Assembly: GCA_021736305.1 (NCBI GenBank)
Contig: JAIPGD010000001.1
Location: forward strand, 1-64,000
Source: Candidatus Izemoplasma sp.
GTDB lineage: Bacteria; Bacillota_I; Bacilli_A; Izemoplasmatales; Hujiaoplasmataceae
Length of the DNA stretch: 64,000 nt
Reading direction: 5' to 3'
A program made the translations under genes and the position numbers. Each line of letters begins with the position of its first letter. Within the stretch, counting starts at the first letter, position 1. Under the pieces are notes generated by a model. That model was given only the letters and a program-made list of their open reading frames with translations. It had not been told where the DNA came from and ran no database searches. Below are positions 8,179 through 13,501 of this stretch, one piece after another.

Positions 8179-9048
8179 ATGAGATTAACTAAAATACAAA
8201 TTATGAGTTTTATAATTGCTTTTTTAGCATTTATCGCTGCTTTAGTTGGTGTATTAGCATTTGGTGATTATGAAGAAATTTCTTTTATTACAATTAGAGG
8301 AGAAGAGGTATTTTTATATGGTAAAGGAATTTATGCATTTGATACAGTAAGCGTTGCTTTACAAGCAATTGCCCAAGACTTTGTTACTTTAGTGATTGCT
8401 ATACCTTTATTAATTTATTCAACAATTAAATTAACAACAAATTCTGTGAGATGGACTCTGCTTCACTTAGGTATGGTAGGATACTTTTTATATTCTTATG
8501 GTACATATAGTTTCTTAAGTCATTTTAATGCTTTGTTTTTAGTTTATGTGATTATCTTTTCAATGAGTTTCTTTACTTTTGTTTTAGCAATTATGCGAAT
8601 TGATGTTGAAAAAATAAAAATATCTTTTAAAGAAGATTTTTCAAAAAAACTAATTGTTATCTTTTTGCTTTTTACAGGCTTTATGTTATTAGCTATGTGG
8701 TTAGGTAGAATTGGTCCGGCATTATTATTGAATGAGATTCCAGTTGGATTAGAATCTTATTCAACTTTAGTTATTCAAGTCTTTGATTTAGGCTTTATTG
8801 TTCCTTTATCATTCTTAGGGGCTTACTTGCTTGCAAATGATAAAGCATGGGGCTATTTATTAGCAGGCGTATTATTATTAAAAGGTATTGCCTTATTTAC
8901 CGCAGTTAGTGCAATGGGTATTATGCAACTTGCTTTAGATGAAGGCGCAAATATTGTTGAGATAAGTATTTTCTTAGCGTTAACATTGTTTTCTTTTTAT
9001 GTTATATTTAAGTTTATTACTGGCATAAAAAAAACATCACTTATTTAG
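8179..9048 (+). CDS. Multi-pass membrane protein of unknown function
   Basis: About eight hydrophobic segments; AGGAGG ribosome-binding site. Confidence 0.6.
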   Translation: MRLTKIQIMSFIIAFLAFIAALVGVLAFGDYEEISFITIRGEEVFLYGKGIYAFDTVSVALQAIAQDFVTLVIAIPLLIYSTIKLTTNSVRWTLLHLGMVGYFLYSYGTYSFLSHFNALFLVYVIIFSMSFFTFVLAIMRIDVEKIKISFKEDFSKKLIVIFLLFTGFMLLAMWLGRIGPALLLNEIPVGLESYSTLVIQVFDLGFIVPLSFLGAYLLANDKAWGYLLAGVLLLKGIALFTAVSAMGIMQLALDEGANIVEISIFLALTLFSFYVIFKFITGIKKTSLI

Positions 9049-9056
9049 TCATAAAA

Positions 9057-9086
9057 AACTCAGGAAAATTCCTGAGTCTTTTTTTT
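9057..9086 (+). terminator. Intrinsic terminator
   Basis: actcaggaaaattcctgagtctttttttt. Confidence 0.8.
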
Positions 9087-9123
9087 GAGAAAAAACAGGG
9101 ATTAACTTGTATATATAAGTGAA
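9085..9123 (+). promoter_or_regulatory. Candidate promoter of the sigma operon, shared with 10907-10945
   Basis: TTGAGA-N16-TTGTATATATAAGTGAA; matched in sequence and spacing by the element upstream of the lipoprotein gene. Confidence 0.55.
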
Positions 9124-9190
9124 CGAATTATTTGGTTATATTTTTCCCTGTGGTAAACTATTAATATATATAATTCACAGGAGATCGCTT

Positions 9191-9736
9191 ATGGATGACA
9201 AATTAATTATAAAAAGAATTTTAGATGGCGAAAAAGATGAATATAGGTTCTTAATGGATAAGTATTATAAGGAATTGTTTAAATATGTTTATAATTTAAC
9301 CAATAATTATGATACTACCGAAGACTTATTACAAGAGATCTTTTTTAAAGTTTATAAAATATTAAATAAATTTGATTCAAATAAAGCAAGTTTTAGAACT
9401 TGGCTTTACCGGATAACATCAAATTACACATTAAATCATTTAAAGAAAAAGTCAAATCGTTTTAATAAGTTTACTTATGAATATGATGATGCTTTTAATC
9501 AAAGTAAAACCGATGTTTTCGAAGAAATAACTAAAGAAAAACAGATGAATCGGATTATCGAAGCTATGCATAAAGTATTAAAGCCAAAACACTTCGAAAT
9601 CATGTCGCTACATTATTTTTCGAATCTCTCCCCTAAAGAGATATCCATTACAACAAAAATTCCTTTAAAGACCGTTTATAAGGCTTTAAAGTCTAGTGTT
9701 GAAAAAATTAAACAGGAGGTGGACATAAATGAATAA
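9191..9736 (+). CDS. ECF-type RNA polymerase sigma factor
   Basis: Sigma region 2 (YYKELFKYVYNLTNNYDTTEDLLQEIFFKVY...FRTWLYRITSN) and region 4 (FSNLSPKEISITTKIPLKTVYKALKSSVEKIK); start with CAGGAG SD (ORF track begins at 9119). Confidence 0.88.
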   Translation: MDDKLIIKRILDGEKDEYRFLMDKYYKELFKYVYNLTNNYDTTEDLLQEIFFKVYKILNKFDSNKASFRTWLYRITSNYTLNHLKKKSNRFNKFTYEYDDAFNQSKTDVFEEITKEKQMNRIIEAMHKVLKPKHFEIMSLHYFSNLSPKEISITTKIPLKTVYKALKSSVEKIKQEVDINE

Positions 9737-10889
9737 ATATAATCGTGAATTAGATGAAACAAGAATCAACCAAGCTAAAAATCGCACGATTTCTTATGTA
9801 TTAGAAAACGTTGAAGCAAAACATTCAATCTTTTCTATCTTTAAACGTAGAAATGTTCGTTATGCATTATCATTTATGTCAGTAGTATTAGTAGTTATTG
9901 TTGGTTTTTCATTATTATTTAATTCTGGCGACACAAATTATAACCCTAATGTACCTACAGCTACTACACTTTCTAATTATGACCAACAAAAATTAGTTGA
10001 AACATCTTATATCTCAGGAAACATTATTATTAATAGTTTAGGTAATTCAATTCAACAATTAGCTTTAGCACAAAATACTACAAAGTTTGATACAAAAGCA
10101 GATGAGTTTAATTACTATTTCAATATGTTAAAACCATTTATCGATGATCAAGATTTTTCCGATTTTCAAGTTGTTGAACTTGAAAATAGTGAATATCAAT
10201 TAGAGATAAATTATCTAATAGGTAAGAAAAACTATGTATTTAGATTAGCAATTGAGGATTCAATTATTTCCGGAGAATTAGTTGTTGGAGATATTACTTT
10301 AATAGTAACTGGAACTATCTATAAAACTGATCAAGAAATAGAATTAGAATTACTAGCTAGTTCAGGTGAAGATTATATTAAAGTAGATTATAAGGCTGAA
10401 GTTGATTCTGAAGAAAGTGAAAAAACTTATGAAATTGAACAATATATTAATTCTGAATATGTTGAAAAAGAAGTTAAGATTTCTTTTGAAGCAGATGAAG
10501 TAAAAGTTGAAATTTCAGAAGGTGATAATGAGTATTTACTAGAAAAGATTATTGAAACTGATTCATATTACTATTATTTAGAATATGAAATTGATGGTAC
10601 TGAAGGCGAAGCCTATATTACAGAGCAATTAATAAACAATGTATATGTCTACAATTATCATATAGAAGAAGATGGTATTGAAAAAGATATTGAATTAGAT
10701 GACTATGAAGATGATGAAGATGATGAAGACGAAGAAGATGAAGAAGACGAAGAAGACGAAGAAGACGATGAAGGTGAAGAAGACATAGAAGATGATGAAG
10801 ACACTGAAGAAGACACTGAAGACGAAGAAGATACTGAATTAGAAGAAGATACTAAAGATGATGAAGACGACGACTCAGAAGAAGAATAA
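9729..10889 (+). CDS. Single-pass membrane protein, candidate anti-sigma factor with hyperacidic extracytoplasmic tail
   Basis: 8-nt overlap with the sigma gene; about 45 aa basic N-terminus, one TM (YALSFMSVVLVVIVGFSLLF), then about 250 aa acidic domain ending in a long D/E run. Confidence 0.65.
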   Translation: MNKYNRELDETRINQAKNRTISYVLENVEAKHSIFSIFKRRNVRYALSFMSVVLVVIVGFSLLFNSGDTNYNPNVPTATTLSNYDQQKLVETSYISGNIIINSLGNSIQQLALAQNTTKFDTKADEFNYYFNMLKPFIDDQDFSDFQVVELENSEYQLEINYLIGKKNYVFRLAIEDSIISGELVVGDITLIVTGTIYKTDQEIELELLASSGEDYIKVDYKAEVDSEESEKTYEIEQYINSEYVEKEVKISFEADEVKVEISEGDNEYLLEKIIETDSYYYYLEYEIDGTEGEAYITEQLINNVYVYNYHIEEDGIEKDIELDDYEDDEDDEDEEDEEDEEDEEDDEGEEDIEDDEDTEEDTEDEEDTELEEDTKDDEDDDSEEE

Positions 10890-10906
10890 ATATAAATTAA
10901 GTATTT

Positions 10907-10945
10907 TTGAGAATTATCAACACATTAATTGTATATATTAATGAA
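10907..10945 (+). promoter_or_regulatory. Candidate promoter of the lipoprotein gene, shared with 9085-9123
   Basis: TTGAGA-N16-TTGTATATATTAATGAA. Confidence 0.55.
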
Positions 10946-10968
10946 AGAGAAAACAGGAGGGCAAAAAA

Positions 10969-12234
10969 ATGAAAAAATTATTAGTATTTATTGGAGTATT
11001 ATTTACAGGTATAGCATTTGCTAGTTGTTCAGCTTTGGGCATAAGTGAAGGTGACCTTACACAATCAAAAGTATTATCAAGTAAAGATTCTTTAGCAACC
11101 TTATCATATTTATCAGCAAACTTTTTAGATATGAACGCACCTGAGGATACAACACAACCACTTAGTTTTATACCATTATCTGAAACAACAACTGAACCAA
11201 TGGATGAAACTGAAGTTGAAGAAAACCTTGAAGGTGTAAATGAATATTTAAGTTTATTAAAAACATTTATGACAAATGGTCCTGAAGAATTTGGCAGTGT
11301 AGAAAACCAAACATCAGACAGACCAGAATTTGATTATCTATTAAACATTAATGTTAATCAAGATGAATATAAACTATATTACAATGTTGATCTATTAAAC
11401 AGTGAAATTAACGGAATATTTATCATTGATGGTGTAGAATACGTTGTAGTAGCAACTTCAACTTTAGAGGGTATGGATGAATTATATGTACCTGAAACTG
11501 AAGAAGACGATGAAGATGAAGTAACTACTGAAGATGAAATTATAGATTCAACTGCAGATGCAACTACAGGTGATGGAACTTATGAAGATACAACTACTGA
11601 AGATACAACTACTGAAGATGCAACTACAGATGAAGCAACTACAGAAGATACAGCGTCTCAATTAGCTGAAACAGATGATGACGTTGATGATGACGAAGAC
11701 GATGAAGATGAAGTAGACGACGAAGACGAATATGATGACGAAGATGAAGCTGACGATGAAGCTGACGATGAAGATGAAACTGAAAGTAAAATGGTTTTAG
11801 TTGCTATGAACGGCGACGACAAAATTACTATCTCTTATGAATTAGAAGCAGAATCAGACGAAACAGAAATTAAATTTGAAATCACAAAAGAAATTAATGG
11901 CGTTACTTCTAATGTAATAATTGAAATCGAACAAGAAGAAGACGAATACAAAATCGAAATCTTTGAAGAAGGAAATTATTATGAATTCAAAATGGAAACA
12001 GAAGATGACGAAATCGAATACAAATTACAATATGAAGTAAATGGTGTACAAGGCGAAATCAAGATTACTGAAACAACAGATGAAGCTGGAAACATAATTT
12101 ATGAATATGAAATAGAAGAAGACGGGAAATATAAAGTTATCGAAAAAGAAGATGCATTAGACGAAGACGATGACGAAGATGAAGATGATGAAGACGAAGA
12201 AGACGAAGACGACGACGAAGAAGACGACGCATAA
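10969..12234 (+). CDS. Hyperacidic lipoprotein, paralogous to the extracytoplasmic part of the preceding membrane protein
   Basis: Lipobox AFASC; YKLQYEVNGVQGEIKITE..IIYEYEIEEDGKYKVIE aligns with YYLEYEIDGTEGEAYITE..YVYNYHIEEDGIEKDIE of the 9729-10889 product; D/E-rich tail. Confidence 0.75.
   Translation: MKKLLVFIGVLFTGIAFASCSALGISEGDLTQSKVLSSKDSLATLSYLSANFLDMNAPEDTTQPLSFIPLSETTTEPMDETEVEENLEGVNEYLSLLKTFMTNGPEEFGSVENQTSDRPEFDYLLNINVNQDEYKLYYNVDLLNSEINGIFIIDGVEYVVVATSTLEGMDELYVPETEEDDEDEVTTEDEIIDSTADATTGDGTYEDTTTEDTTTEDATTDEATTEDTASQLAETDDDVDDDEDDEDEVDDEDEYDDEDEADDEADDEDETESKMVLVAMNGDDKITISYELEAESDETEIKFEITKEINGVTSNVIIEIEQEEDEYKIEIFEEGNYYEFKMETEDDEIEYKLQYEVNGVQGEIKITETTDEAGNIIYEYEIEEDGKYKVIEKEDALDEDDDEDEDDEDEEDEDDDEEDDA
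11584..11655 (+). repeat. 15-nt coding tandem repeat (GAAGATACAACTACT), about 4-5 units
   Basis: Two exact copies at 11584-11598 and 11599-11613, then degenerate units. Confidence 0.85.
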
Positions 12235-12293
12235 ACAAAATAAGCAAAGTTATGACGAAATAACCACAACTAACTAATCCTAATTTTCATATA

Positions 12294-12332
12294 GAAAAGT
12301 CTCAGTGTAAAGCACTGAGGCTTTTCCTTTTA
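12294..12332 (+). terminator. Intrinsic terminator
   Basis: aaaagtctcagtgtaaagcactgaggcttttcctttt. Confidence 0.75.
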
Positions 12333-13003: not shown

Positions 13004-13501
13004 ATGATATCAATGGATTTATTAAGAGGTTTTGAGAGTCGGATAGCTGCGATTCAAAAGCGGAGACCAACGAATTTAATTAAAATGAAATTACCACAAG
13101 GTTATGATGATGTTATTGCAATGTTTATTAAAGAAGAAAATGAAATTCTTTTTAATGATAAAGTATTTGATCAAGCAAATGAAGCTGATATAATGGCTGC
13201 GTTATTTCATGAAATACGTCACGCATATCAATGGCATCAAATTAACAATAAACAATCATCAAAAGAAAATAAGGAATTATTAGAAATTTGGGAAGAAGAG
13301 TTTCATAATAATATTCAACCTAATGAAGAAAACACTGAATATTATTATAATCGCAATATTGAAATTGATGCGATTGCTTATGCAGATACAAATATTAATA
13401 ATATTTATTTAACAAATTTACAGATTCCTGAAAGTATTAAAACTAAAGTTTTAGCGAGACAAGCTGAGATTAAAGATAATGATGATATAATTAAATTATA
13501 A
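13004..13501 (+). CDS. Putative zinc metallopeptidase (HExxH) of the ImmA/IrrE-like size class
   Basis: LFHEIRHAYQW motif and downstream EIDAIAYAD. Confidence 0.55.
   Translation: MISMDLLRGFESRIAAIQKRRPTNLIKMKLPQGYDDVIAMFIKEENEILFNDKVFDQANEADIMAALFHEIRHAYQWHQINNKQSSKENKELLEIWEEEFHNNIQPNEENTEYYYNRNIEIDAIAYADTNINNIYLTNLQIPESIKTKVLARQAEIKDNDDIIKL

Follow-up and report, generated by a model that had tools for sequence, protein, structure and literature searches.

Three genes on the forward strand of the window, by which we mean the whole stretch of 64,000 nucleotides analyzed, encode an ECF sigma factor, a single-pass membrane protein and a lipoprotein, and form one unit (Table 1). The window lies on contig C76 of a 1.52 Mb draft genome (~96% complete) of an Izemoplasmatales bacterium (Mycoplasmatota), an order in which the peptidoglycan wall is absent (PMC10868615). 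All the features described for the trio in the original prediction were recovered by reading the sequence and its open reading frames, including the 8-nt overlap between the sigma ORF, which runs to 9736, and the membrane protein ORF, which starts from 9729. The trio is flanked on both sides by terminator-like hairpins (three found by the terminator scan vs 0.7 expected) and, from the overlap and these terminators, we infer that the sigma and membrane protein genes are co-transcribed. Immediately 5′ of the unit, positions 8179–9048 encode a membrane protein of 289 aa that has several membrane passes and matches nothing in Pfam or NCBIfam. A small HExxH protein, weakly SprT-like, is encoded at 13004–13501; several loci of this family likewise have an HExxH protein gene, together with a GNAT gene and mscL, after the trio.

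Table 1. Features of the three-gene unit (window coordinates).
Feature	Position	Strand	Basis or remark
Terminator-like hairpin	9058..9077	+	Ends upstream gene; left border of unit
Predicted ECF promoter P1, GAGAA-N16-TGTATATAT, 5′ of sigma gene	9087..9116	+	Exact spacing, perfect site
ECF sigma factor, 181 aa, regions 2 and 4	9191..9736	+	Pfam, NCBIfam and PDB profile matches
Single-pass membrane protein, 386 aa, putative anti-sigma factor	9729..10889	+	Overlaps sigma gene by 8 nt
Cytoplasmic N-terminal region, residues 1–43, putative sigma-binding segment	9729..9857	+	Conserved helix
Transmembrane helix, about residues 45–65	9861..9923	+	Hydropathy, direct sequence reading
Ectodomain, residues 83–325	9975..10703	+	AlphaFold pLDDT 83, pTM 0.80
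Hyperacidic low-complexity tail of membrane protein	10704..10886	+	Not conserved among orthologues
Predicted ECF promoter P2, GAGAA-N16-TGTATATAT, 5′ of lipoprotein gene	10909..10938	+	Perfect site
Lipoprotein, 421 aa, paralogue of membrane protein's ectodomain	10969..12234	+	hhalign, alignment
Lipobox cysteine Cys20	11026..11028	+	FASC lipobox; invariant in 16/16 aligned lipoproteins
Acidic, Thr-rich low-complexity insertion in lipoprotein domain, length variable	11500..11778	+	Alignment, repeat analysis
Acidic C-terminal tail of lipoprotein, variable	12157..12231	+	Alignment, repeat analysis
Terminator-like hairpin	12294..12326	+	Right border of unit

The products of the unit

The first product has regions 2 and 4 only in about 180 aa, as in ECF (group IV) sigma factors, and its earlier identification as ECF-type agrees with matches to Sigma70_r2 (4e-17), Sigma70_r4_2 (1e-5) and TIGR02937 (4e-24); the nearest sigma factors of the PDB in a profile search were SigW (1.6e-26) and RpoE/AlgU. 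The listed start, GTG 9119, was replaced by ATG 9191, with the ribosome site ACAGGAG, because the predicted promoter occupies 9087–9116.

The membrane protein has, as had been described, a short basic N-terminus (net +4 over residues 1–43) and one transmembrane segment, and the zinc motif HxxxCxxC is absent because residues 1–43 contain no Cys; the N-terminal region also lacks Cys in 12 of 13 homologues. In the membrane proteins of this type (type A, see below) the N-terminal helix carries the motif NRxID...SKxRTIxxVxxxI, and pairwise identity over residues 1–31 is 0.40, equal to that of the best ectodomain part, with just 0.19–0.24 in the juxtamembrane, transmembrane, linker and tail regions. 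The ectodomain is modeled by AlphaFold as two helices followed by 15 strands, which the spacing of the hairpins lets us read as antiparallel. Foldseek of this model against the PDB gave no relative below E 1e-3, with low TM values; the sole match below 1e-3 came from a viral library and, at a TM of 0.16, was judged meaningless.

The third gene encodes a lipoprotein with an Asp/Glu-rich linker and tail, in accordance with the original prediction, and has a signal peptide with a FASC lipobox (Cys20). The analysis adds three things to the earlier description: an ectodomain and a promoter shared within the unit, and a second module elsewhere in the genome. Comparison of hhalign profiles built from 13 membrane proteins and 16 lipoproteins showed that the two extracytoplasmic domains are homologous over their full length (probability 100%, E 1.3e-56), and the lipoprotein can therefore be seen as a second version of the membrane protein's sensor domain, attached by a lipid anchor and lacking the cytoplasmic helix. 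Searches of Pfam and NCBIfam with the whole membrane protein and with the lipoprotein returned nothing significant. The trio is real, conserved (see below) and without a family name.

Promoters and occurrence of two module types

Motif discovery identified KGAGAAAA-N14-TGTATATAT as common to the regions 5′ of the sigma and lipoprotein genes. Allowing small variations, GAGAA-N16-TGTATATAT was found with identical spacing in 29/33 upstream regions of the family (sigma genes, 11/14; lipoprotein genes, 15/16; displaced lipoprotein genes, 3/3) and in none of the shuffled regions. Scans of 20 genomes with the perfect motif and a spacing of 15–17 gave 31 sites, 23 of which (about three quarters) lie at sigma or lipoprotein genes of the trio family, all with N16; five scanned genomes in which a type A trio was not detected had no perfect site. 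In the window's genome P1 and P2 are the only two perfect sites. A search of the same genome with two mismatches allowed, giving 48 sites vs 43 for the reversed pattern, was not above background, and therefore no wider regulon can be read there. Perfect copies within uppP in two relatives were judged to be coding coincidences. This is strong comparative evidence, from sequence, that the free sigma factor would drive its own promoter and that of the lipoprotein, both of one sequence.

A few genomes have additional predicted type A targets. At L071 (G041:C1:1530373) the promoter is followed by the gene of a small, acidic-tailed exported protein, a possible extra target in this relative, and then by that of a ferric-reductase-like membrane protein (PF01794); at L059 (G045:C1:189172) it lies 5′ of a lipoprotein gene with an RsgI_M domain (PF23750, 7.6e-22), and at L064 (G037:C3:52347) a perfect copy is located about 215 nt 5′ of the gene of an ABC transporter which, judged by eye, is MacB-like. 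A lipoprotein resembling, by eye, the RsgI_M one of L059 is placed before a type B trio at L135. In the window's own genome a one-mismatch site (GCGAA variant; L187:1317-1387, G000:C8), 40 nt 5′ of a CvpA-like gene, is a candidate third target. At L069:292-1494 (G039:C13) we observed a gene for a 401-aa fusion protein made up of a degenerate form of sigma region 2 (37.6 bits vs a shuffled maximum of 10.8), one transmembrane segment and an extracellular part in which no homology to the ectodomain of the trio was detected; directly at the 3′ end of this gene stands a perfect type A promoter. In three loci of one genus (L033, L034 and L035) the GGAGAAAA element of the lipoprotein promoter falls within the inverted repeat GGAGAAAATTCGTTTTCTCC, possibly an additional operator.

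The type A trio was found in about a dozen Izemoplasmatales genomes, and homologous loci from records with a name come from Izemoplasmatales and related Mycoplasmatota; 'Mycoplasmatota bacterium strain zrk2' (CP076020), for example, carries the trio. A second, paralogous and diverged sigma/membrane protein/lipoprotein trio (type B) is present in the window's genome (G000:C65, L047:3192-5942) and recurs widely across the class, G147 being among its carriers. The membrane protein gene lies directly 3′ of the sigma gene, on the same strand, in 13/13 type A loci and in 16 further type B loci (gaps from −17 to +10 nt in type B), as expected of an anti-sigma gene; the lack of a conserved association of the genes in relatives, which the original prediction had set against itself, was not observed. 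The position of the lipoprotein gene varies among type A loci, being downstream, upstream, divergent or elsewhere as an extra copy. Type B operons have a promoter of their own, CCAATAAAA-N13/14-CGTWTA, which in the window's genome takes the form CCAATAAAA-N13-CGTATA 5′ of both the type B sigma and lipoprotein genes; in G147 the predicted type B site, with CGTATA, is at C1:444468-444496, ahead of the lipoprotein gene. Each sigma type, having a distinct motif on its operon, therefore appears to have its own promoter, with autoregulation and the lipoprotein as main output.

The membrane protein as a putative anti-sigma factor

The N-terminus of the membrane protein matched no anti-sigma entry in Pfam, NCBIfam or the PDB, as the original prediction had anticipated, and may therefore represent an undescribed anti-sigma type; PDB profile searches with the N-terminus and with the ectodomain gave chance matches only, CnrY not being among them. 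Homology of the membrane protein to a known, unrelated family, which had been named as telling against an anti-sigma role, did not turn up either. An AlphaFold model was built of the sigma factor fused to residues 2–41 of the membrane protein through the real 8-nt overlap (four-letter step). It shows one clear predicted helix in the N-terminal region (residues 191–210 of the fusion, pLDDT 81–83), drawn as if it prolonged sigma region 4, at an overall pTM of 0.51; Foldseek with this model recovers the sigma portion only. The comparison of divergence (Mantel) is suggestive, with shared ancestry as a confounder: the N-terminal helix correlates with sigma at r 0.49, with its own ectodomain at 0.40, with the lipoprotein at 0.27 and with the transmembrane region at 0.24, and the highest correlation of the ectodomain is that with the lipoprotein (r 0.81). 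Of the idea that the membrane protein is an anti-sigma factor, the conserved adjacency to an ECF sigma gene and the lack of a known anti-sigma match stood, and the contact with sigma is a putative one.

Like class I anti-sigma factors (RsiW, RseA, ChrR; with and without zinc), the putative regulator is encoded directly 3′ of the ECF sigma gene, whose product is itself nearest to SigW and RpoE/AlgU; unlike them, its N-terminus of about 43 residues is too short for a helix bundle and has no match in Pfam or NCBIfam, and the HxxxCxxC motif carried in a helix bundle of >50 residues is lacking. In its cytoplasmic helical segment of <50 residues, placed before one transmembrane helix and free of a zinc motif, the protein resembles the class II factor CnrY, the partner of CnrH, in which two helices bind sigma4 and sigma2 (PMC7406223). 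However, it has one clear predicted helix and its sigma binding is putative, and class II membership is not claimed because no sequence similarity to CnrY was detected. The E. coli sigmaE system combines the anti-sigma factor RseA with a separate extracytoplasmic modulator, RseB (PMC10202637), an arrangement which the putative anti-sigma factor and lipoprotein recall, although no homology was found and the second protein of the trio is a paralogue of the ectodomain with its own sigma-type promoter. An anti-sigma factor with an extracellular sensor domain, as proposed for the trio, is also known from two systems of Bacillota, RsiV, a cleavage substrate of signal peptidase and RasP (PMC10202637), and RsgI. 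The proteins of the trio match neither of these families; an RsgI_M lipoprotein is instead a predicted type A target in G045.

An anti-sigma role of the membrane protein is the reading that we favour on these comparative grounds. That it is instead some other co-transcribed surface protein, with sigma controlled otherwise, would agree with the lack of a known anti-sigma domain and with a fusion model whose pTM of 0.51 gives no clear docking; we hold this to be unlikely, since it is the membrane protein gene alone that strictly adjoins or overlaps the sigma gene while the lipoprotein gene changes place, and since the conserved cytoplasmic helix is present in the membrane protein and absent from the lipoprotein. 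Less likely still is the mechanism of the original prediction, in which the polyanionic tails would be sensors of cations, cationic peptides or metals and would control the release of sigma. The very long Asp/Glu run that prompted it does end the membrane protein of this species (51/61 residues), and the lipoprotein has similar runs. Across orthologues, however, the Asp/Glu fraction of the tail goes from 0.85 down to 0.06, several having 0.06–0.3 and one no tail at all, while the trio, the ectodomain and mostly the promoter are retained. In addition, the acidic runs sit on short, degenerate, slippage-prone tandem repeats, and one gene of contig C65 that is unrelated to the trio also has an acidic tail at its end. 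The conserved part being the folded ectodomain, polyanion sensing is rejected as the core mechanism, and the Asp/Glu runs are accessory disordered extensions.

A proposed circuit and its meaning for wall-less bacteria

We consider it likely that the unit is an autoregulated switch, composed of an ECF sigma factor and a membrane anti-sigma factor, and that its main predicted output is the lipoprotein, a homologue of the anti-sigma factor's own sensor domain. The short N-terminal helix would hold sigma at the membrane, and the ectodomain, with its predicted fold of helices and 15 strands, would read a signal on the outer face, upon which the anti-sigma factor would be degraded or released, with intramembrane proteolysis by a protease of the RseP/RasP type as one possible route. 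Searches recovered an M50 site-2 protease from 11/12 genomes, but none from the draft genome of the window, and PrsW from 0/8 genomes, so that this proteolytic step is a tentative one. Free sigma would then act at the two promoters of the same sequence, its own and that of the lipoprotein, and the lipid-anchored twin of the sensor would build up at the surface. There it would close the loop, either through contact with the ectodomain of the anti-sigma factor or as a competitor for that domain's ligand, and sigma activity would be set by the amount of lipoprotein or its ligand load.

In this switch the lipoprotein would, in our judgement, take part in feedback or else be an effector with the same ligand as the sensor; going by its homology and its promoter, it is probably a feedback partner or decoy. 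The lipoprotein could also be imagined as a plain effector, e.g., a protective or ligand-binding coat of the wall-less cell, with the anti-sigma domain meeting the same ligand and with no direct feedback, an explanation to which we give somewhat less than an even chance. Lipoprotein genes with the same promoter are found outside the trio too, as expected for effectors, and clostridial RsgI-type anti-sigma factors, whose carbohydrate-binding domains are of the same kinds as those of the enzymes in their regulon, offer a precedent; homology alone, however, fits an effector and a feedback partner equally. Taking the feedback reading further, the unit could tentatively be seen as a closed homeostat and not a stress regulon, that is, a short anti-sigma factor of a new type and a sigma factor dedicated to a surface duplicate of its sensor domain, together keeping the density or ligand occupancy of that protein constant; such an ECF circuit of wall-less Bacilli would be undescribed, and we regard this extended proposal as a little less probable than the plain effector.

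The Mollicutes lineage is usually described as poor in sigma-factor regulation. Putative alternative sigma factors were reported there as mostly species-specific and partial (Fisunov et al., 2016; PMC5138195). With its two types and its readable promoters, the conserved ECF module of Izemoplasmatales and related orders would constitute a defined extracellular signalling pathway in wall-less bacteria. The homology between sensor and output suggests a simple feedback design, which may have been overlooked elsewhere, since Pfam has no entry for the shared outer domain; the module is of interest because of this homology, its narrow predicted regulon and its wall-less hosts.
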